Positions 4,182-36,438 of a DNA stretch of 43,642 nt are shown one piece after another. The DNA lies in NCBI GenBank assembly GCA_002840985.1, contig PHDM01000030.1, positions 1 through 43,642 of the forward strand, written 5' to 3'. Numbering within the stretch: position 1 is the first letter of the stretch; the number at the start of each line of letters is the position of its first letter. The notes under the pieces were generated by a model. That model made no database searches, was not told where the DNA came from, and saw nothing but the letters and a program-made list of their open reading frames with translations. This stretch comes from Bacteroidetes bacterium HGW-Bacteroidetes-17. Its GTDB lineage: Bacteria > Bacteroidota > Bacteroidia > Bacteroidales > GCA-2711565. The position numbers and the translations under genes were made by a program.

Positions 4182-4357
4182 TAGTGGTACATTTTTTTTA
4201 TCATTAATGCGTAAACTCATTTTTATTAATCACAATTACAGCAATTGTTTAAACTGTTCTATTCTATAATTTTATTGTACCGAAATGAAACAACTTACAA
4301 TTGTAATACAGCCTTCATATATGTATAATAGGCAGATAAACAGACATATAAATCGAA

Positions 4358-4373
4358 TGGCACATGGTTTGCA
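4358..4373 (+). promoter_or_regulatory. Sigma-54 (RpoN) promoter for the lone FtsX-like permease
   Basis: TGGCACATGGTTTGCA matches the -24/-12 consensus TGGCAC-N5-TTGC with all conserved positions and exactly 10 bases between GG and GC. Transcription would start near 4384, leaving a leader of about 33 bases to the ATG at 4417. No convincing TAnnTTTG box competes for this start. Confidence 0.78.
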
Positions 4374-4416: not shown

Positions 4417-6819
4417 ATGTTTAAAAATTATTTAACCTCAGCTTTGCGAAATTTAATTAGAAATAAATCTTTTTCTATCATTAATATTTTAGGACTTACA
4501 ATCGGAATCACTACATGCATCATGATTTTTTTGTTTGTTTTTGATGAACTGCGGTATGGACAAGAACATCCTGAAAAAGAAAATATATACAGAATTTTAC
4601 GCGGAAGAGATGATTGGTCAGTTATCACACCAATGAAATTACTGCCTGTACTTATTGAAAATATCCCAGCTATTGAATCTACAGCGAGGTTAAAGAAAAT
4701 GAGCAGCGTTGTAACCTTTGAGAATGATTTTTATAATGAAAACGAAGTTTTATATGCTGATACCAACTTCCTGGAATTTTTCGATTGTGATTTATTAATT
4801 GGCGATAGAAAAACCGCTTTAAACAAACCTAATTCAATTATCCTTACAGAAGAAATGGTTCGCAAGTATTTTGGCAATCAAGATCCCATGGGAATGGTTC
4901 TAAAAATTGATAATGAAGTTCCGGTAATTGTAAGTGGGGTTTTGAAGGAAAGTCCAAAATTCAGGCCATTTGCGTTAGATTTTTTAATTAATATTGAAGT
5001 ACTTAGATATAACAATTCTGGCGCTTTTACCAATTGGGATAATAATTCTTTTCAATCATACGTGCGATTGAATGAAAAGGCTAATGCTGAGGTCGTGGCA
5101 GAATCGATTCCTGAATTTGTGGCAAAAGCACGTGGTTGGGATAAAATAGGATATGCAAGATATCGTCTGCAACCTTACACAAATATTCATTTGCATTCAA
5201 AAAATTTGGGTTGGGATAATTTTAGCAGAGGGGATGCGACTAACGTTTTTAGTTTTTTAGGCGTCGCCATTTTAGTTTTGGTATTGGCTTGTTTTAACTA
5301 TACAAACTTGTCGACTGCCCAAGCTGCAAGAAGGGCAAAAGAAATTGGTCTCCGTAAAACCGTTGGAGCTTCAAAGTGGCAATTGATCATTCAGTTCTTA
5401 TTTGAAGTTTTTATTTTAGTCTGTAGCTCGGTCATCTTTTCTTTAATCCTTGTTGAGATGTTAATGCCATGGTTTAATCAGTTAACAAATAAAACTTTAT
5501 CGCTTTACGCATTAAATCCAGTAGTTATAATACTTTCAATTATGCTTTTCATCAGTTTTGTTTCACTGATGGCAGGTTTTTATCCGGCTTTTGTATTGTC
5601 AGGTTACCAACCCATCAAAGTATTAAAAGGTAGTGGCTCAGCAGGACTCGAAGTTATGAAAGGTGGAGGTATTGCTATTCGTTTCCGACAAATAATGATT
5701 GTGTTTCAGCTTGCAAGTTCTGTAGCCTTAATTATAATAGCTGTCCTCATAAAAAATCAAATTGATTTTGCAGGGAATAAGGATTTAGGTATGCAGCCAA
5801 ACCAGCTACTTGTATTAAATAATATTCGGGCAGATGGAATGCAACAGCGTTATGATAATTTAAAAGCTGATTTGAGTCAATATCCTGAAATTATTAAAAT
5901 TAGTGGAGCATTCAATGTGCCTGGAGAGGATCTTAATAATTGGTGTACACTGCGATTACGAGCTGCTGATAATAAAAGTAATATTAGTAGTGCATATATG
6001 TTTATTGATGAAGGTTATTTTGATTTAATCGGTGCAAAGATCCTAAAAGGGAGGACATTCATGAGCAATAGTGCTTATGAAGATGTCAACTCGTGTATTA
6101 TCAATGAAACTACTGCCAGAATGTTGAATATTTATGATGATCCCATTGGACAGCAAGTATTTGGATTTTTTGATGATACAGTTCGAACGGTAGTTGGAAT
6201 GGTGAATGACATCCATTACAAATCACTACATGAAGGGGTTCCACCCGTGGTTTATAGGTCGGGCGATGAATATCCGCCTTATTTTTACCGGTTAGTAATG
6301 AGAATTGACAGTAAAAATATATCTAAAACCATTAGTCTAATTGAGGATGTTTGGGAAAAACATGAACCTAATTGGCCTGCTCAAATACGACTTATTGATA
6401 AGGAATTTGAAAATATGTATTTAACAGAAAAAAAAGTCTCGAAACTGATCAGTCTCTTTACATTGCTGGCTATTTCCATATCCTTACTTGGCTTATTTGG
6501 CTTAATCGCTTTTGTTGCCATATCGCGGAGAAAAGAAATAGGTATCCGTAAAACGCTTGGAGCTTCAATGTTAAACATTGTGATGACAATTGGTAAAGAA
6601 TTTATTTTTTTAACTATGGTTGCCAATTTAGTAGCTTGGCCGATTATTTATTTCATCTCTATCAGATGGTTGGACAATTTTACCGAAAGTGTATCTATAA
6701 ACTTCTTGTGGTATCCTTTGTCAGGTCTTATTGTGTTATGGATTGTTCTAATTATTGTAGTCTATCATTCAATTCATACAGCAAATCAGAATCCGGTTAT
6801 AGCCTTAAAGTATGAGTAA
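4417..6819 (+). CDS. FtsX/MacB-type ABC transporter permease-like protein
   Basis: 800 residues with two copies of the MacB-type layout: an N-terminal membrane helix (about 20-42), a large periplasmic MacB_PCD-like region, three helices of the FtsX domain (about 280-430), then a second periplasmic region and a second FtsX domain (about 675-790). The cytoplasmic coupling motifs KEIGLRKTVGAS and KEIGIRKTLGAS precede the FtsX helices, and the protein ends NPVIALKYE, as is usual for this family. No ATPase, adaptor or TolC gene is adjacent, so its partner must be elsewhere if it works as a transporter. It is transcribed alone from a predicted sigma-54 promoter and ends at a strong terminator. It is related to the tandem permeases at 28728-33551. 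Substrate unknown; such proteins act in efflux or mechanotransmission. Confidence 0.85.
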   Translation: MFKNYLTSALRNLIRNKSFSIINILGLTIGITTCIMIFLFVFDELRYGQEHPEKENIYRILRGRDDWSVITPMKLLPVLIENIPAIESTARLKKMSSVVTFENDFYNENEVLYADTNFLEFFDCDLLIGDRKTALNKPNSIILTEEMVRKYFGNQDPMGMVLKIDNEVPVIVSGVLKESPKFRPFALDFLINIEVLRYNNSGAFTNWDNNSFQSYVRLNEKANAEVVAESIPEFVAKARGWDKIGYARYRLQPYTNIHLHSKNLGWDNFSRGDATNVFSFLGVAILVLVLACFNYTNLSTAQAARRAKEIGLRKTVGASKWQLIIQFLFEVFILVCSSVIFSLILVEMLMPWFNQLTNKTLSLYALNPVVIILSIMLFISFVSLMAGFYPAFVLSGYQPIKVLKGSGSAGLEVMKGGGIAIRFRQIMIVFQLASSVALIIIAVLIKNQIDFAGNKDLGMQPNQLLVLNNIRADGMQQRYDNLKADLSQYPEIIKISGAFNVPGEDLNNWCTLRLRAADNKSNISSAYMFIDEGYFDLIGAKILKGRTFMSNSAYEDVNSCIINETTARMLNIYDDPIGQQVFGFFDDTVRTVVGMVNDIHYKSLHEGVPPVVYRSGDEYPPYFYRLVMRIDSKNISKTISLIEDVWEKHEPNWPAQIRLIDKEFENMYLTEKKVSKLISLFTLLAISISLLGLFGLIAFVAISRRKEIGIRKTLGASMLNIVMTIGKEFIFLTMVANLVAWPIIYFISIRWLDNFTESVSINFLWYPLSGLIVLWIVLIIVVYHSIHTANQNPVIALKYE

Positions 6820-14532: not shown

Positions 14533-14548
14533 TGAATCACTAAATTTG

Positions 14549-16411
14549 ATGCATATGGTTTATATTCTGGGAAAACATAACAGTTTGTTAAATCAGTTTT
14601 TATCCGAGCTCAGAGATGAGCACATTCAATTGGATCGTTATCGTTTTCGAAAGAATCTGGAACGACTGGGTGAAATTTTTGCCTATGAAATCAGTAAAAA
14701 GCTGGAATATGAGCAGAAAGGTGTTACAACACCTTTAGGAGTAGCCAATGTATTTGTATTGTCCCAACATCCTGTTCTTTCTACAATTTTCAGAGCTGGT
14801 TTACCCTTGCATCAAGGGATGTTGAATTTCTTTGATCATGCTGATAATGCCTTTGTTTCTGCATATCGCAAGTATCATAAAAATCAAAAATTTGATATCC
14901 GGATCGAATATGCTTCAAGCCCCGATCTTGATGGTCGAATATTAATTCTTTCGGATGTGATGCTGGCAACAGGAGCATCGATCGTCTTGGCATACAGAGA
15001 ACTCCTTCATATGGGAAATCCAAAGCATACCCATATTGTAGCTGCCGTTGCAAGCGCAGAAGGGGTTGAATATATTAAGAAAAATTTACCATCGACCAAA
15101 GTTACCCTTTGGGTAGGTGCTGTTGATGATGAATTGACTGCCCAATCATACATTGTTCCCGGCTTGTTTATGACAAAATTTCTGATCATAGAAAATATTA
15201 AAATTTCACTTGAGTCTATTCGATCGCATATGTTGAGAAGCATTCTCACTGTTCTGATTATTGCATTTGGGATAATGGCCCTCGTTGGTATTCTAACTGC
15301 TATTGATTCAATTAAATACTCCTTAACCGATAGTTTCGCGATGATGGGTGCAAATACTTTTACAATTCGAAACAGGGAAATTATTATACGCATGGGAGGT
15401 GGAGGTAATGATGCAAAAAGATTCAGGTCAATTACGATAGATGAGGCAACTACTTTTAAAGAGGAATTTAAAATTCCTGCCTCTGTTTCGGTTTACACTT
15501 ATGGAACTAATTCTGCTACTTTAAAATTTGAATCCGAAAAAACAGATCCGAATGTTCCGGTAATTGGTTCTGATGAAGGTTATTTAATAACTTCGGGATT
15601 GGAGATTGAGAAAGGACGGAATTTTAATGTAAATGAAGTGCATTTCGGGAATAATGTAACTATTATAGGAAGCGAAGTTGCAAAACGATTGTTTAAATCA
15701 AATGTTGACCCTATCGACAAAATAATCTCAATTGGTCCTGGAAAGTATAAGGTAATTGGGGTGTTGAAAGAGAAAGGCTCAAGTATTGGGGCGAGTGATC
15801 GTTTGGCAGTCGTACCACTGACGAATGTTAGGCAGTATTTTTCCAGAGCAAACATGAATTATACAATCAATGTAATGACTTCCAGAGCGGAAGATACAGA
15901 GGCTGCAATAGGTGAAGCAACAGGATTGTTTCGTGTAATTCGCAAAGATAAACTTGGAGAAGTAGATACTTTTGGAATAGCCAAAAGTGACCTTATTGCT
16001 GATACCCTTATAAGTATGATGAGCTATGTTACCATGGCCGCAACATTTATTGGACTGATTACGTTGCTTGGAGCGGCCATAGGTTTAATGAACATCATGC
16101 TGGTGTCGGTGACCGAACGAACACGGGAGATTGGTATCAGAAAGGCCATGGGCGCGACAAGCATTACAATTAGGAATCAATTTTTTGTGGAAGCAATCGT
16201 AATTGGACAAATTGGTGGTCTTTTGGGAATTGTCCTAGGGATTTTGATAGGGAATATTCTTTCTTTATCCATCGGTAGTGCCTTTATCGTTCCTTGGTTA
16301 TGGATCTTATTGGGCGTTGTTTTGTGTTTTATCGTAGCCATTATTTCAGGAATTATTCCTGCAAATAAAGCAGCACGGCTTGATCCAATTGATGCTTTGC
16401 GATACGAATAG
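14549..16411 (+). CDS. Uracil phosphoribosyltransferase fused to a MacB/FtsX-type ABC permease
   Basis: One uninterrupted frame of 620 codons. The ORF-track TTG at 14546 is replaced by ATG 14549 (or 14555, [12 protein letters not shown]). Residues 1-206 are a UPRTase: [39 protein letters not shown], the PRPP loop as DVMLATGAS (usually DPMLATG), and [14 protein letters not shown]. The normal C-terminal GDAGDxxxG segment, which contacts uracil, is missing. From codon 208 (ATG at 15170) a full 413-residue MacB-type permease follows: [19 protein letters not shown]1 ([15 protein letters not shown]), a periplasmic domain, [14 protein letters not shown] and the last three helices, ending [12 protein letters not shown]. 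Topology is consistent, with UPRTase in the cytosol. No ATPase gene is near. It could be a real fusion, a decayed upp tail, or an assembly artefact. Confidence 0.85.
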
Positions 16412-28727: not shown

Positions 28728-31142
28728 TTATTCGTACCGGATTGCATCAATAGGGTTTTTATAGGCTGCCTTAATGGAGTGAAAATAGACCGTAATATTT
28801 GCAATAATCAGACTTGAAATTGAAGAAACAAGAAAAACCCACCAAGGGATATTTATACGATATGAAAATCGTGATAACCATATATCTAAAAAATAGATTA
28901 CAACCGGAACCGAAACTATACTTGCAATGATAATCAGAGCAGAGTATTCTTTACACAATTGTAGTACAATACTCGAAACAGACGCTCCATATACTTTCCT
29001 TATACCTATTTCTTTTGTCTTTTGAAAAACCATAAATGATGCAAGTCCAAACAATCCAAGGCAAGCTATAAAAATGATGAGTAGTGATAAATAAAATAAA
29101 ATAGAATATAGCTTTTCTTCATTGGTGTACTGATCGTTAAGACGATTTATAAGTAATGAATATTCAAAAGGCGATTCTGGCGCAAATATTTTCCATGATT
29201 TTTCAATATGAGGAATCACTGTTGGGAGATATTTTTCATTGAATTTTATACTCGCTTGCCTATGGAACTGTTCATTCCAAAAAATAGCCATTGGAACAAT
29301 TGAATTGTGAAGTGACTCCACATGGTAATCTTTAAATATTCCGATAATTGTAAAATCATCAGGCACGATGGAGCCTGCTTTATTTACCTTTATGTATTCT
29401 CCAACGATTGTATCCCAACCAAGAAGTTTGGCTGCAGTTTCATTGATTAAACAGGTATTGATCTTATCTGTTTGTAAATCAGGATTGAAAAACCTTCCTT
29501 CTTTAATCTTGATTTGATACAAATCAAAAAAATCCGGATCAACGGTTGTAATCCTCATCGTTTCCTCTGTATCTTTCCATTTAAAAGAGACCGTGTTATA
29601 TGTATTTCCTGGTATTCCATGTGAAAATGAAACATTGGTGATATATGGAATTTTTAGTAGCTCTGCCTTAAATTCATTCCTGGAATTAACGATTTTAGTA
29701 GGTAGAAGAAGGTTGATTATATGCTCTTTTTTAAATCCAAGATCTTTGTTTTGCATATAATTATTTTGTAATGAAATAATGATTGTGCCGGCTATTAGTG
29801 AGCTTGTAATTGTAAATTGGAATAATATAAGTATGCGCCTGAATAGAAAAGAATTTGAGTTCCTGTTTTTACTATCCGTAAGTAGTTTTGATAATTTTGT
29901 TTGCGATAAATAGACAGCCGGATATAGACCTGAAATAATACCTAAAAAGAGTGTGAAAAGCAATATGATAGCCAATCCTGTAGTACTAAATATTTGAGAA
30001 AGGTCTATTGTTTTCGCGAAATAGTTATTGAATTCGGGTAAAATTCTTTGAAGAAGCGTCAATGCAATAAGCATTGCAAAAAGAGCAATAATGATAGATT
30101 CAAGTAAAAATTGAAGCTTAAGACTCAAATTTGGTGCTCCAACTATTTTTTTTATTGAAATCTCTTTTGTTCGTGTTGATGCTGTGGCAGTAGATAGGTT
30201 AATAAAATTTATAATTGCTATAAACAATATAAAGATGGCGATAATCATGAACACATTAATCATTTGTTTGTTTCCATGTTTAATGCCTGCAAACATCGAT
30301 GTGAACTCTTCATCCTTAGAAAAATAAATTTCGGATAATGATCTTAGAGATACAAAATCTTCACTTTCAAACTGATTTGTTCCATATTTTTTAAAAATAT
30401 CATGATCATAATTATCTAAATAATGATAAATTTTATTGCTTATTTTTTTAGAATCGTAATGACCATTTAGAAGAAGGTACGTGAGATAGTTATAAGAATT
30501 TAATTCAGCTAGATACTCCTTGCCATAGATATTACTTAGTGTTTGAAGAGAGAGTAGGGCATCAAATTGAAAATGTGATTTCTCAGGCCTAATAACTACA
30601 CCATCTATTCTATAGCTTGTATTTCTGATCTTAATGACCTTGTTTATGGGATTCTCTTTACCAAAAAGCTTTTCCGATACCTCGTCAGATAAAACACAAC
30701 TCATTGGATCTTTCAGGGCATTTGCAGCATTTCCATACTTAAATTCCAAAGTAAAAATGTCAAATATGGTTGAATCCACATATTGCCGGATATTGATATT
30801 CAAATTATGGCCTAATTCCGCATCATTGCTTGGACTAAAAGATATGGTAGCTTGCCCTAAATTTGTGGTGCGACAAGTCTTTTCAATTTCTGGAATTGAA
30901 TTCGCTAACAAATGCCCGATTCCAGCTGGTAAGATTGGAGATTCTCCAAATATGAGCCCATATTTCTCATCATATCTCTTATTGAATTTGTCATAATTAT
31001 ATTCATAAAGAGCATACATGCCAATAAGCAGAAATATGCAAATACCGATGGCTAAACCAAATATATTGATAAAAGAATAAAGCTTTTGCCGAAATATATT
31101 TCGAATGGCGTACTTTAAATAGTAATTATTCATTTTACTCAA
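28728..31142 (-). CDS. FtsX/MacB-type ABC permease-like protein (distal gene of tandem pair)
   Basis: 804 residues with the double MacB_PCD-FtsX layout: TM1 at about 20-42, periplasmic region, three helices near 300-430 with TRTKEISIKKIVGAP, a second periplasmic region, and the last helices after KTKEIGIRKVYGAS. It ends NPIDAIRYE. It lies 18 bases after its homologue at 31161-33551 and shares blocks such as INETAAKLLGWD and SFSHGIPGNTYNT, so the pair arose by tandem duplication. No ATPase gene is adjacent. It would be cotranscribed from the sigma-54 promoter at 33574-33589. Confidence 0.87.
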   Translation of the reverse strand: MSKMNNYYLKYAIRNIFRQKLYSFINIFGLAIGICIFLLIGMYALYEYNYDKFNKRYDEKYGLIFGESPILPAGIGHLLANSIPEIEKTCRTTNLGQATISFSPSNDAELGHNLNINIRQYVDSTIFDIFTLEFKYGNAANALKDPMSCVLSDEVSEKLFGKENPINKVIKIRNTSYRIDGVVIRPEKSHFQFDALLSLQTLSNIYGKEYLAELNSYNYLTYLLLNGHYDSKKISNKIYHYLDNYDHDIFKKYGTNQFESEDFVSLRSLSEIYFSKDEEFTSMFAGIKHGNKQMINVFMIIAIFILFIAIINFINLSTATASTRTKEISIKKIVGAPNLSLKLQFLLESIIIALFAMLIALTLLQRILPEFNNYFAKTIDLSQIFSTTGLAIILLFTLFLGIISGLYPAVYLSQTKLSKLLTDSKNRNSNSFLFRRILILFQFTITSSLIAGTIIISLQNNYMQNKDLGFKKEHIINLLLPTKIVNSRNEFKAELLKIPYITNVSFSHGIPGNTYNTVSFKWKDTEETMRITTVDPDFFDLYQIKIKEGRFFNPDLQTDKINTCLINETAAKLLGWDTIVGEYIKVNKAGSIVPDDFTIIGIFKDYHVESLHNSIVPMAIFWNEQFHRQASIKFNEKYLPTVIPHIEKSWKIFAPESPFEYSLLINRLNDQYTNEEKLYSILFYLSLLIIFIACLGLFGLASFMVFQKTKEIGIRKVYGASVSSIVLQLCKEYSALIIIASIVSVPVVIYFLDIWLSRFSYRINIPWWVFLVSSISSLIIANITVYFHSIKAAYKNPIDAIRYE

Positions 31143-31160: not shown

Positions 31161-33551
31161 TTATTCATGCCGGATCGCATCCACAGGATTGCAATGGGCT
31201 GCTTTTAGGGAATGAATACTGACAGTCAATAATGCAATAATTATAGTAACTATTAAGGCAAATGGGAAAACCCACCATTGTATAGATATCCTGTAAGGAT
31301 AAGCATCCAGCCATTTCGATAAAATGATCCAGGTGATTGGTACTGCAATAATATTAGAAATCAGAACCAAAATGGCAAATTCTTTTGAAAATTTGGCAAC
31401 AATTTGTATAATAGAAGAACCCAATACCTTTCTGATACCAATTTCTTTAAATCTTTTTTGAGTCATAAAAGCTGATAACCCTAACAAGCCAAGACAAGCG
31501 ATAAAGATTGCCAGAATTGAAAAATAGATAGCAATTTTTTGCATACGTTGTTCCGATTTGTACATTTGGTCAAACTGCTGGTCAAGAAAGGTATATTCAA
31601 ATGGGAATCCTGGGCTGTTTTTATTCCAAGTTTTTTCGATATAGTCAATTGTTTCGGGAATATTGGCAGATGAAATTTTGATGCTCGCTTTCCGGTAAGT
31701 ACTGTCTGCCCAAAAAACTGCCAGAGGAACAACTGGTACGTGTAAAGACTCCAGATGATAGTCTTCAAATAATCCAATTACTGTAAAACGTGCAGGTACT
31801 AAATAGTTTGAACTCTGCAACTGTACTGTTTTGCCAACCGGATCGTCCCATCCAATCATTTTAGCAGCGGTTTCATTTATCAGGCAGGTGTTTCTCCTGT
31901 CAGTAGATAATTCCCAGGAAAACGCCCTTCCTTCTTTAATTTTAATATTCAATGTTTCGAAAAAATCCGGATCTACTGAAGATATTCTCATGCCAATAGG
32001 TTCCTCTTTCCATATAAAACTCAAGGTAGTATTTGTATTACCAGGAATTCCTTCTGAAAATGACACCTTCGAAATATTCGGATATTGAAGCAGTTCTTTT
32101 TTAAAAGTTTCAGTTGATAAACGTAAACGGTCACTTAATTGCAAATTGAGAATATTTTCTTTGTCAAATCCTAAATCCTTGTTTTTGAGATAAGAAATCT
32201 GTTTGTAAATTAATAAAGTACCGGAAATCAAAATGGATGCAATAATAAACTGTAATATAATCAACACTTTACGAAAATAACCTATTTCCCCCCCAACATT
32301 TAAGATGCCCTTCAATACAATTAATGGTTTAAATAAAGACATGTATATGGCAGGATATAATCCTGCAAGTAACCCAACTACAATCGAAGTCAATAAAATT
32401 AGAATTATACCAGGAGTAGTGAAAATAGTATCATGCAAATTAAGATTTGTTAAAGTTAAATTGTTGAATTCCGGTAAAAGAACTTGAAGCATAGTGATGG
32501 CAAGTATTATAGCAATAAAACTTATAAATAGTGATTCTGTAAGAAATTGTAAAATCAGTTTTTGTTTTGAAGAACCAAGAACTTTTTTGACTCCAACTTC
32601 GCGGGCTCGATTTAATGCTCTTGCCGTTGTTAAATTGATGAAGTTTATCATGGCGATAACCAGTATAAAAATTGCAATGATAATAAATGCATTAACTATT
32701 GGTTTGTTGCCATGTTTTACTGCAAATTCATACTTAGCATCCTTAAAAAAGTAAATATTTTTTAAAGGCCTCAAAATAATATTTGATGAGGTCCAACTTT
32801 CTTTTATTAAGGTTTTTTGGTCGTCAAATTCTTTTAAGAATGTAAAAATTTTATCACGTACTGTTTCAGCATTGTAATCATCATAAAAAAGAAAGTAGGT
32901 GAGATAATTGCGATAACCAAGTGTTTCCATGCTTTTCTGACCCATAACATTGTACAAAGTTGTTATGGAAAAATATGCATCACATTGAATGTGAAAATTT
33001 TTCGGATCTTCAATTACACCGGTAATTTTCATATTAGCCCGATTATCATAATTGATTACTTTATTTAATGGATCCTCATTTTCGAATAATGCTTTAGCAA
33101 TTTTTTCAGTAATTACAATAGAATTGGGTTCTATTAGTGCTTTTTGAGGGTCACCTGAAATCAATCTTAATTTAAAAATGTCGAAAAATGTTGAATCTGC
33201 AGCCCCCATATTTTTTACTGTAACTGCTTTTTCCAGATCATTATTTTCGAGCGAAAGCTTTAACAATCCTCTTCCAAAACTTCTAAATCGACAAATTTTA
33301 TCAATTTCTGGGATTTTTCCATCCACTATCTTAGCTATTCCAGGTGGAATCACGCACCAATCATTTAATTCCATCCTGTAAATACGATTATAATTTGGAT
33401 TAAATCTGTCGTAGCTATATTCGTTTTTTACATAGAGTGCAATAATTAAAAAAACACATAGCCCAATGGCAAGACCTAAAATATTTATGATAGAATATAT
33501 CTTTTGTCTTCGGATATTTCTAATGGCCAATTTTAAGTAATACGGTATCAT
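31161..33551 (-). CDS. FtsX/MacB-type ABC permease-like protein (proximal gene of tandem pair)
   Basis: 796 residues, same domain order as its downstream neighbour. Motifs: RNIRRQKIYSIINILGLAIG at the N-terminus, RAREVGVKKVLGSSKQ and KEIGIRKVLGSS before the two FtsX helix bundles, and a C-terminal NPVDAIRHE. The first ATG at 33551 gives a 12-base leader from the predicted sigma-54 start. The divergent response regulator and kinase genes (33720-36438) very probably control it. Substrate unknown. Confidence 0.87.
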   Translation of the reverse strand: MIPYYLKLAIRNIRRQKIYSIINILGLAIGLCVFLIIALYVKNEYSYDRFNPNYNRIYRMELNDWCVIPPGIAKIVDGKIPEIDKICRFRSFGRGLLKLSLENNDLEKAVTVKNMGAADSTFFDIFKLRLISGDPQKALIEPNSIVITEKIAKALFENEDPLNKVINYDNRANMKITGVIEDPKNFHIQCDAYFSITTLYNVMGQKSMETLGYRNYLTYFLFYDDYNAETVRDKIFTFLKEFDDQKTLIKESWTSSNIILRPLKNIYFFKDAKYEFAVKHGNKPIVNAFIIIAIFILVIAMINFINLTTARALNRAREVGVKKVLGSSKQKLILQFLTESLFISFIAIILAITMLQVLLPEFNNLTLTNLNLHDTIFTTPGIILILLTSIVVGLLAGLYPAIYMSLFKPLIVLKGILNVGGEIGYFRKVLIILQFIIASILISGTLLIYKQISYLKNKDLGFDKENILNLQLSDRLRLSTETFKKELLQYPNISKVSFSEGIPGNTNTTLSFIWKEEPIGMRISSVDPDFFETLNIKIKEGRAFSWELSTDRRNTCLINETAAKMIGWDDPVGKTVQLQSSNYLVPARFTVIGLFEDYHLESLHVPVVPLAVFWADSTYRKASIKISSANIPETIDYIEKTWNKNSPGFPFEYTFLDQQFDQMYKSEQRMQKIAIYFSILAIFIACLGLLGLSAFMTQKRFKEIGIRKVLGSSIIQIVAKFSKEFAILVLISNIIAVPITWIILSKWLDAYPYRISIQWWVFPFALIVTIIIALLTVSIHSLKAAHCNPVDAIRHE

Positions 33552-33573
33552 CGTTTTTTATTTATTTTATATT

Positions 33574-33589
33574 TGCATTAAACATGCCA
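33574..33589 (-). promoter_or_regulatory. Sigma-54 (RpoN) promoter of the tandem permease operon
   Basis: TGGCATGTTTAATGCA on the minus strand keeps GG and GC with exactly 10 bases between. It differs from TGGCACG-N4-TTGCA at two less critical positions. The start would be near 33563. It is divergent from an NtrC-type activator gene, which strengthens the call. Confidence 0.72.
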
Positions 33590-33603
33590 ATTTTGTTAAA
33601 GAA

Positions 33604-33624
33604 TTGTAATATAATGCATTACAA
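33604..33624. promoter_or_regulatory. Inverted repeat in the divergent promoter region
   Basis: TTGTAAT and ATTACAA are perfect 7-bp arms separated by 7 bases, 41-61 bases upstream of the sigma-54 start. The related palindrome TTACAATTGTAA lies upstream of the other sigma-54 promoter, at about 4289-4300. It is a candidate activator site. Confidence 0.4.
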
Positions 33625-33661
33625 ATAATTGTTTGCAACTTCAGCAAAGGGTTGTGTCAAA

Positions 33662-33692
33662 ATGATACGCTATATTGTATCATGTTGATACG
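33662..33692. promoter_or_regulatory. GATAC-type operator / upstream activator site
   Basis: ATGATAC and GTATCAT form perfect 7-bp arms with an 8-base spacer (33662-33683), and a third half-site TGATACG follows at 33686-33692. It is centred about 110 bases upstream of the sigma-54 start of the permease operon, the usual place for an NtrC-type enhancer, and overlaps the -33 box of the regulator's own promoter, which suggests autorepression. Confidence 0.55.
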
Positions 33693-33705
33693 TTTCGTAC
33701 ATTTG
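33675..33705 (+). promoter_or_regulatory. Predicted housekeeping promoter of the response regulator gene
   Basis: TTG at 33675-33677 and TACATTTG at 33698-33705, 20 bases apart. The start would be near 33711, about 9 bases before the ATG at 33720. Confidence 0.6.
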
Positions 33706-33719
33706 TAAAAAATACATCA

Positions 33720-35093
33720 ATGGACGCCAAAATTTCAGGTAAAATTTTGTTTGTAGATGATGATGTGGATGTTTTGCATACCGCCCGCTTGATATTAAAG
33801 CCTCATTTTTCTGAAGTAATTACCCTTACCGAGCCTGATAAAATCCCTGATCTTTTACTCGAACATCATTTTGATGTCATCGTATTAGATATGAACTTTT
33901 CGTTTGGTCAGACGAGTGGAAATGAAGGATTATTTTGGTTAAGGAAAATCCTTTCAATTGATCCAGGAGCCCATGTATTAATGAATACGGCTTATGGCGA
34001 TATTCGGTTGGCAGTTGAAGCCATGAAAGAAGGGGCCATTGACTTTTTAGTTAAGCCCTGGGAGCAGGAAAGATTACTTGCCACTGTGCAATCTGTTTTC
34101 GAACTGAGCCGGGCTAAAAAGGAAAATAAAAACCTTACCCAGATCAAAAATGCCTTGTCTTTTGATTTAGACCAACCCTTTGGCGAACTTATCAGTAAAG
34201 CTAAAAGCATGCTGCCTGTTTTCGAAGCCATTAATAAAGTAGCCAAAACAGACGCTGATGTGTTAATTCTTGGAGAGAATGGCACAGGAAAAGAGTTGGT
34301 TGCCCGAAGTATTCATCGAAAATCAAAACGTGCTTCGGAAATGTTTATAAATGTTGATTTGGGTGCTATTCCTGAAAGCCTTTTTGAATCGGAGTTATTT
34401 GGGCATAACAAGGGTGCTTTTACCGATGCAAGTGAAGATCGAATGGGCCGATTTCAAATGGCAAATCGAGGTACTCTTTTTTTGGATGAAATCGGAAACC
34501 TAAATTTAAATTTACAATCTAAACTCTTATCCGTTATTCAAAACAGAGCGGTTTATAAAGTGGGTTCAAGTCAAGCTCAAAATATTGACATACGATTAAT
34601 TTGTGCAACCAATAAACCCATTTATCAAATGCTTGCCAGAGAAGAATTTCGACAGGATTTACTCTATCGTATCAATACTGTTGAAATAAATTTGCCACCT
34701 TTAAGACAGCGGACAGAAGATATTCCACTTTTGGTAAATCATTTTCTTCATCTCTTTAACAAAAAGTATGATAAAGTCGGACAAAAATTTACCGAAAAGG
34801 CGATTCGTAAACTGCAGTTGTACGATTGGCCGGGAAATATCCGTGAACTGCAACATTTGGTCGAAAGGGCTGTAATTATGAATAATGACATTTTCATTGA
34901 TGAAAATGCAATTCTGTTAAATGTCCCAAATGAACAACAAGATAAGGTAGTTAATTTTCACATTGAAAATGTGGAGAAAGAAGCAATACAAAAAGCCTTA
35001 AAAGCAGTGAACTGGAACATGACGGAAGCATCTAAAATACTGGGCTATGGACGAAGTACTTTATACCGGAAAATGAAAAAGTATGAACTTTAA
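33720..35093 (+). CDS. NtrC-family sigma-54-dependent response regulator
   Basis: 457 residues from ATG 33720; the ORF-track start at 33675 is a TTG inside the promoter. Receiver domain (about 8-125) with the acidic pair DDD near 13-15, phosphoacceptor D57 in VIVLDMNF and K112 in LVKPWE. The AAA+ domain has Walker A GENGTGKE (185-192), Walker B FLDEIGN, and the sigma-54-contact loop as GAFTDA (232-237) instead of GAFTGA. The C-terminal Fis-type helix-turn-helix is TEASKILGYGRSTLYRKMKK. It overlaps the kinase gene by 11 bases. Predicted targets are the divergent permease operon and possibly the permease at 4417. Confidence 0.92.
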   Translation: MDAKISGKILFVDDDVDVLHTARLILKPHFSEVITLTEPDKIPDLLLEHHFDVIVLDMNFSFGQTSGNEGLFWLRKILSIDPGAHVLMNTAYGDIRLAVEAMKEGAIDFLVKPWEQERLLATVQSVFELSRAKKENKNLTQIKNALSFDLDQPFGELISKAKSMLPVFEAINKVAKTDADVLILGENGTGKELVARSIHRKSKRASEMFINVDLGAIPESLFESELFGHNKGAFTDASEDRMGRFQMANRGTLFLDEIGNLNLNLQSKLLSVIQNRAVYKVGSSQAQNIDIRLICATNKPIYQMLAREEFRQDLLYRINTVEINLPPLRQRTEDIPLLVNHFLHLFNKKYDKVGQKFTEKAIRKLQLYDWPGNIRELQHLVERAVIMNNDIFIDENAILLNVPNEQQDKVVNFHIENVEKEAIQKALKAVNWNMTEASKILGYGRSTLYRKMKKYEL

Positions 35094-36438
35094 TTTCTTT
35101 AGGGTAAAACTGATTGTTTATATTGTATTGCTAATTGCCAGCAGTATTGCAAGCCTGTATTTTGCTATTGCTTCGCCCTTTTGGCTGTTGTCGGGTTGGG
35201 CTTTTTTGCTGGTAATTTTAAGTTCGGTTTTACTTATCCGCGAATCGGAAAGAAGCAAACGTGAACTACTCAACTTTATCAGTGCCATCACTTTCGGTGA
35301 GTTTAAAAATACGTATAAGTTAAAAAGCAAGAATGATGATCTTGCAAAAGCTTTTGATGATCTGATCAGTGTTTACCGTAATTTAAGCACTGAAAAAGAG
35401 CGCAATCATTCGTACTTACAAACCATTGTTGAACACATAAATATTGTTCTTCTTTGTTTTGATAAAGACGAAAACATTGTGATTTTGAATGAAGCAGCAA
35501 AACGGTTTTTTGATCGTTCCAATATTAAAAAAATAAATGTGATTGAACGGTTTGATCAGCCTCTCTCTTCGATTGTTAAAGAAATAAAGGGCGGTCAAAA
35601 AAAACTTTACAAATTTAGTAAAATGGGAAATGCCTATACCATTTCGATACAGGCTACAGAGTTTAAATTACAAGACAAGCCCTATAAATTAGTCTCTATA
35701 CAGGATGTTAGGTTTGAATTGGAAGAGCAAGAATTGGATTCGTGGCGTAAATTGGTAAGGGTTCTGACTCATGAGATTATGAATACGGCTATTCCGATCT
35801 CAACATTGGCAGGAGTTACAAATCAATTGTTGTTCGATGAAAAAGGAAATGAAAAAGATTTGACTTCTTTGAATCAGGAAGATCAAAGCGATTTAAGACA
35901 CAGTCTGAAAACCATAGAAAAGCGCAGCAAAGGAATCGTTGAATTTGTTAAAGCGACCAAAAGCTATACAAATATGCCTGCTCCGAAGTTCGAAAAAGCG
36001 AATCTTAAACAGATAATCCAAAATGTTATTGACTTACTGAGGCCAGGATTTGAAGATAAAAACGTTAAAATTGTTCTAGAAGCAAACGACGGGATAGCTG
36101 ATTTAGATTTGGATACTAAACTGATCGAACAATTGCTGATCAATATCCTTAAAAATTCGATGGATGCTTTAGAAAAATCTGAAAGCGGGTTGGTGAAAAT
36201 CAGTTTAAAAAGCGTTGATTTTGAAAACAGAACCATGGTTGAGATAGCTGATAATGGCTCTGGGATGAATCAGGATATTCTCGAAAATATTTTTATCCCT
36301 TTTTATACTACCAAAAGAGAAGGATCAGGAATAGGATTAAGTTTGTCAAAACAAATTATGAGAATGCATCATGGCACCATCGAGGCCAGATCTGTTGAAG
36401 AGAAAGGCACCACAATAATTTTAACTTTTCGGGATTAA
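35083..36438 (+). CDS. NtrY-like sensor histidine kinase
   Basis: 451 residues. Two close membrane helices (about 9-29 and 33-52) leave almost no periplasmic loop, so it probably senses a membrane or cytoplasmic signal. A short linker is followed by a PAS-like domain (about 108-215), then a dimerisation domain with H230 in RVLTHEIMNTAIP, and an ATPase domain with the N box NILKNSMDALE, the G1 box DNGSGM, the F box PFYTTK and the G2 box GSGIGLSLS. The partner is the overlapping response regulator gene. It ends 37 bases before the convergent ankyrin gene. Confidence 0.92.
   Translation: MNFNFFRVKLIVYIVLLIASSIASLYFAIASPFWLLSGWAFLLVILSSVLLIRESERSKRELLNFISAITFGEFKNTYKLKSKNDDLAKAFDDLISVYRNLSTEKERNHSYLQTIVEHINIVLLCFDKDENIVILNEAAKRFFDRSNIKKINVIERFDQPLSSIVKEIKGGQKKLYKFSKMGNAYTISIQATEFKLQDKPYKLVSIQDVRFELEEQELDSWRKLVRVLTHEIMNTAIPISTLAGVTNQLLFDEKGNEKDLTSLNQEDQSDLRHSLKTIEKRSKGIVEFVKATKSYTNMPAPKFEKANLKQIIQNVIDLLRPGFEDKNVKIVLEANDGIADLDLDTKLIEQLLINILKNSMDALEKSESGLVKISLKSVDFENRTMVEIADNGSGMNQDILENIFIPFYTTKREGSGIGLSLSKQIMRMHHGTIEARSVEEKGTTIILTFRD

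Follow-up and report, generated by a model that had tools for sequence, protein, structure and literature searches.

Adjacent to a kinase and two permease genes we identified an intergenic region which is very probably a divergent, psp-like switch, in which an NtrC-type response regulator (P0001) would activate two tandem permease genes (P0002 and P0004) from a pair of DNA dyads and, from the same sites, repress its own gene. All positions refer to the window, the whole 43,642-nucleotide stretch of DNA that was analysed (Table 1). From the sequence and its comparison between loci we infer that P0001 binds here, activates the permease genes and represses itself, as well as what kind of signal is sensed. 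The same layout recurs across the phylum Bacteroidota, with each copy carrying its own site sequence and a matching regulator.

In the proposed mechanism, the histidine kinase P0003 would phosphorylate P0001, dimers of which would bind cooperatively to the two 17 bp dyads, along a single face of the DNA, and loop to a sigma-54 RNA polymerase waiting at the promoter of the permease operon. Activation by P0001 would then lead to transcription of both permease genes, and the dyad-bound regulator would also limit its own synthesis because dyad 2 lies over -33/-18 of its sigma-A promoter. The operator would be private to P0001, with paralogous modules in the same cell reading other operators, since the operator sequence matches the recognition helix GRSTLYRK. 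The signal is probably the state of the membrane or the permease itself, as the sensor is predicted to have no periplasmic domain.

Table 1 Features of the divergent locus (start codons, membrane helices and promoters as predicted)
Feature	Position	Strand	Basis
P0004, second tandem permease	28728-31142	minus	two MacB-like periplasmic and two FtsX stretches
P0002, permease of about 800 aa	31161-33551	minus	single chain carrying two MacB-like periplasmic domains and two FtsX domains
Putative sigma-54 (-24/-12) promoter of the permease operon, TTGGCATGTTTAATGCA, GG-N10-GC	33574-33590	minus	sequence, shuffles, conservation in G001 and G002
Dyad 1, TGTGTCA-AAA-TGATACG, putative enhancer/operator	33653-33669		sequence and conservation
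Inverted repeat ATGATAC-N8-GTATCAT	33662-33683		right half of dyad 1 and left half of dyad 2
Putative, weak -33 element of the regulator promoter, TTG	33675-33677	plus	sequence only
Dyad 2, TGTATCA-TGT-TGATACG, putative enhancer/operator	33676-33692		sequence and conservation
Putative -7 box of the regulator promoter, Bacteroidota sigma-A type, TACATTTG	33698-33705	plus	TAnnTTTG consensus
P0001, NtrC-type response regulator	33720-35093	plus	receiver, sigma-54 AAA+ and Fis-type HTH domains
P0003, histidine kinase, overlapping the regulator gene	35083-36438	plus	domains and hydropathy

Regulator, kinase and permeases

The three domains of P0001 all scored above cut-off (PF00072, PF00158 and PF02954), whilst none of the NCBIfam equivalogs reached its cut-off. 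The sigma-54 contact loop of its AAA+ domain (34413-34430) reads GAFTDA and not GAFTGA. This form is common to 92 of 110 relatives, with GAFTGA found in only three, and a motif search restricted to GAFTGA would therefore not recover this family of regulators. GAFTGA is described as invariant in a 2025 survey (PMC12316311), and GAFTDA is among the loop variants expected to retain activity (PMC4641369).

P0003 has two membrane helices predicted from hydropathy (residues 10-26 and 36-52) with a 9-residue loop between them, which suggests a kinase of the intramembrane-sensing type. Two helices with loops of 1-14 residues were present in 72 of the 83 kinases which follow related regulators, and by virtue of these short loops the kinases of the family seem to have no periplasmic sensor domain.

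P0002 is predicted to be a type VII ABC permease (MacB/FtsX superfamily), with MacB_PCD and FtsX matches above cut-off and a MacB/YbbP-like fold; the best structural match to its AlphaFold2 model (mean pLDDT 80) is E. coli YbbP, followed by MacB, LolCDE and BceAB. P0004 lies 18 bp downstream and is 46% identical to P0002 in alignment. Assignment to the ADOP duplicated permeases (TIGR03434) was rejected, with scores of 260.6 and 208.8 bits against an NCBIfam cut-off of 622.3. No ABC ATPase gene was seen beside this locus. Matches to the MacB-core domain number 65 in this single genome.

Two promoters in a shared intergenic region

The intergenic region has a GC content of 26% and is bounded by the ATG of P0002 at 33551 on the minus strand and by the ATG of P0001 at 33720, which we take as the regulator start codon in place of the upstream TTG chosen by the ORF caller. 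The minus-strand GG-N10-GC promoter reported in the first-pass annotation is present: a strict TGGCA-N7/8-TGC[AT] element arises in only 0.2% of dinucleotide shuffles, and the TGGCAYGNNNNWTGCW form of it occurs only twice across the 3.6 Mb genome, which itself encodes sigma-54 (rpoN, PF04552 match, E 2.6e-51). Read as a -12/-24 element, it would set the start of transcription at about 33563.

On the plus strand, the letters of the TTG-N20 promoter proposed earlier for the regulator are there, as is its -7 box, but the TTG element is weak. In Flavobacterium the TAnnTTTG motif covers -12 to -5 (PMC9723704), which would put the regulator start near 33710. A perfect TAnnTTTG box was found in 13 of 74 modules where 1.7 were expected, and across the family these -7 boxes cluster 5-8 bp past dyad 2. 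Relative to that start, dyad 2 itself would extend from about -34 to -18, which agrees with the earlier placement of a repeat over the -33 box, and by its geometry alone this arrangement is compatible with autorepression by promoter occlusion. PspF bound at the pspA enhancer likewise lowers its own expression (PMC3709507).

A rather unlikely alternative is that the dyads are an enhancer for the permeases only, their overlap with the regulator promoter being accidental and the regulator being expressed constitutively or even activated. Autorepression is argued from where the sites lie, the -33 element is nowhere strongly conserved, and in several relatives over 100 bp separate the dyads from the ATG of the regulator (222 bp in L008, 290 bp in L010 and 130 bp in L019). 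However, the placement of the -7 box 5-8 bp past dyad 2 holds across the family at a level above shuffles, and dyad 2 repeatedly falls at about -35 to -17.

Conservation of the module and its paralogous family

Comparison with related genomes, which had been suggested as a test of the sites, found the dyads and the sigma-54 promoter conserved along with the genes in two orthologous loci. The regulator orthologue is 98% identical in the sister genome G001 and 82% identical in G002, both loci retain the two dyads at the same distance to the regulator ATG, and both have a sigma-54 promoter ahead of the permease gene, even G002, where this promoter reads differently (TTGGCACATATCCTGCA) and the permease shares only about 57% identity. 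In Bacteroidales and Cytophagales, regulators that share the recognition helix of P0001 are accompanied by TGTnTCA/TGTnCCA dyads of the same kind, repeated every 22-23 bp. The genome of this locus is 3.6 Mb at 87% completeness, and its closest named relatives are Bacteroidales metagenome-assembled genomes.

The first-pass annotation had described a compact, self-contained switch; its layout is indeed conserved, but it belongs to a large family of paralogous loci. This genome has nine closely paralogous regulators (P0001 included) and G001 has 14, where eight regulator modules are found within 70 kb (L106-L109, G001:C99:403-472 kb). Most of these paralogues have their own operator. Typically the divergent gene of a module encodes about 800 aa and is of the same permease kind, whilst in some modules an adaptor-like protein or an ABC ATPase comes first instead. 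At least three paralogous regulator modules also lie on contig C11 of genome G000.

Dyad pairs of the form TGT-N10/11-ACA, 20-24 bp apart and with a score of at least 27, were present upstream of 62% of the first 45 regulators; dinucleotide shuffles contained them in 0.9% of cases, and segments drawn at random from these loci in 2.8%. Sigma-54-like elements scoring at least 11.5 were found on the divergent strand in 73%, whereas the opposite strand had them in 18% and shuffles in 5%. An initial scoring, which used half-site similarity only and 17 bp units, overlooked 16 bp operators and was replaced. A convincing dyad pair was absent at 34 of 108 regulators, including Dyadobacter relatives at about 40% identity, and five loci of the same class (L005, L006, L007, L012 and L019) had no recognisable in-phase sigma-54 site. 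One contig binned as Gammaproteobacteria carries a regulator with 48% identity and a kinase (L013:626-2014), together with twin dyads of the TGTACGC type and a sigma-54 site that is in phase with them, a module which may be there through transfer or mis-binning.

Promoter and dyads keep a fixed helical phase

The best position for the sigma-54 element was picked irrespective of its distance to the dyads. Measured from the -12 base of that element, the centre of dyad 1 is mostly about 74-78 or 85-89 bp away (tabulated distances are 0.5 lower), two classes one helical turn apart with an empty gap between them. Thinning to <65% identity left 29 modules, for which a Rayleigh test at 10-10.5 bp gave a p of about 2e-6; the empty gap is more telling than this value, since one narrow cluster also yields a small p.

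This locus belongs to the upper class, with 86 bp between the -12 C of the promoter and the centre of dyad 1. The enhancer had been placed at -110 by the first-pass annotation, which is the midpoint of the dyads, their own centres lying at about -98 and -121 from the predicted sigma-54 start. Both dyads are on the same side of the helix, as they are about two turns apart (period 23 bp).

Operator sequence follows the recognition helix

Across 110 non-redundant regulators, the inner bases of the half-site track the recognition helix. The helix of P0001, GRSTLYRK, goes with TGTaTCA, GRTTLYRK or ARTTLYRK with TGTTTCA/TGTTCCA, NRSTLY with TGTTGGA, SRTTLYLK with TGTTCAG, TRASLYRR with TGTtCGa in 16 bp units, TRG(A/S)LYRR with TGTCCA and TRQT(L/I)YNK with TGTAAAA. 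With identity in the rest of the protein controlled for, operator and helix remained correlated (partial Mantel r = 0.22, reached by 0 of 2000 permutations). The Ser/Thr directly after the helix Arg tracks base 4 of the half-site, which is T in 1 of 28 cases for GRST vs. 16 of 20 for [GA]RTT; the Fisher p of 3e-8 for this contrast is optimistic, as half-sites are not independent. This covariation in cis and trans is the strongest evidence for the predicted binding of P0001 to the dyads.

It is improbable that a transcription factor other than P0001 occupies the dyads. C4, a paralogue from the same genome with the helix GRTTLYRK, has an operator (TGTTTCA-N3-CGGAACA) that resembles that of P0001, so that cross-binding is conceivable. 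Against this, operator sequence and the helix of the neighbouring regulator covary more closely than general relatedness would explain, and the exact operator adjoins only this regulator: TGTNTCA-N3-TGATAC has two exact matches in the whole genome, both at this locus, although at 87% completeness more sites may be absent from the count.

The unit which P0001 would recognise is the dyad of 17 bp, present twice and built from four half-sites, an arrangement found in 0 of 1000 shuffles. The first-pass annotation had instead described a 7-8-7 inverted repeat with a third half-site, TGATACG. The repeat exists but was parsed wrongly, as it joins the inner halves of two dyads; the third half-site was found (33686-33692), yet a fourth, TGTGTCA (33653-33659), had been overlooked. 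A perfect 7 bp inverted repeat with a spacer of 0-20 bp occurs in 60% of dinucleotide shuffles (6% with a spacer of exactly 8), so the 7-8-7 repeat proves nothing by itself, and being at chance level it was dropped as the unit in favour of the conserved twin dyads. Readings of the inverted repeat as a terminator or hairpin in RNA, or as a product of chance in AT-rich DNA, are very improbable: chance does readily supply such a repeat here, but no terminator-like site was found in the region and what is conserved is the twin dyad with its fixed period and phase, not the 7-8-7 repeat. A fifth half-site, GTATCAT (33544-33550), overlaps the permease start codon and is kept in G001 and not in G002, possibly a coincidence.

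Relation to known systems

This kind of circuit, psp-like and NtrC-like, is already known. In E. coli pspF/pspA the activator gene is divergent from a sigma-54 operon, and NtrC acts at paired palindromic enhancers. The pspA gene has two enhancer sites (PMC3709507). Our locus shares with pspF/pspA the divergent activator, the two activator sites (predicted here) and a membrane-related output. PspF, however, is without a receiver domain and is held by PspA, whereas P0001 is a two-component response regulator with a kinase, and here the output is ABC permeases and the system exists in many paralogous copies with different operators. The receiver, sigma-54 AAA+ and Fis-type HTH domains are those of the NtrC family (AtoC, ZraR, NtrC), unlike the GAFTDA loop and the TGTnTCA dyads of 17 bp set 23 bp apart. 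A two-helix, near-loopless kinase linked to a permease of the MacB/FtsX superfamily is likewise found in Bce-type BceAB-BceRS, but there the activator is OmpR-type and not an NtrC-type sigma-54 activator; our locus also differs in that no adjacent ATPase gene was seen and the permease is duplicated, with two periplasmic domains. E. coli YbbP (of YbbAP-TesA) has the same length as P0002, with about 12% identity and a TM-score of 0.45, and no ybbA or tesA homologue was seen beside P0002.

The only literature on the module which turned up was a 2025 survey (PMC12316311), which describes a sigma-54 enrichment for COG0577 and for FtsX-like permeases of Bacteroidia as first evidence and so already ties sigma-54 to these permeases at survey level; in its accessible part, paired operators, their spacing, a helix code and paralogous kinase-regulator modules were not found mentioned. 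A paralogous, orthogonal and phase-locked family with duplicated permeases was not found described in the searchable literature. Tentatively, Bacteroidota might have a large family of insulated sense-and-pump modules (intramembrane kinase, NtrC-type activator and duplicated MacB/FtsX permease), in which the permease would be the sensor, a helix-to-operator code would keep the copies orthogonal and the spacing would be fixed to one of two helical turns. For the very many Bacteroidota permeases that are uncharacterised, the locus offers a regulatory logic that can be tested. It also provides a naturally occurring series of enhancer-binding proteins in which a few residues of the helix apparently reveal the choice of operator, and an example, seen throughout a family, of enhancer and promoter spaced in register with the helical repeat.

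Related sites elsewhere in the genome

The degenerate class pattern YGTNYCRNNNYGRNACR has seven sites in the genome, vs. two for the reversed control: two at this locus, one at the C4 paralogue, one upstream of the permease at 4417 and three that are seemingly unrelated. A wider P0001 regulon was rejected. In other genomes of the genus the class pattern is no commoner than the control, and for this reason we trust only those sites with sigma-54 phasing. Elsewhere in the window, a single frame (14546-16411) contains both an apparent uracil phosphoribosyltransferase and a MacB-like permease; it is a private fusion or an assembly error, since its parts are separate or split by a stop in five relatives from the genus.

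The lone permease at 4417-6819 is preceded by a strong sigma-54 promoter of its own (ATGGCACATGGTTTGCA) and, in the same helical phase at 88 bp, by one dyad only (TGTACCGAAATGAAACA); the two elements lie at 4276-4292 and 4357-4373. By the helix code, its regulator is likely to be the C4 paralogue (GRTTLYRK) and not P0001. A permease in G001 with 54% identity has a similar dyad (CGTTTCGTTTTGGAACA), also in phase.
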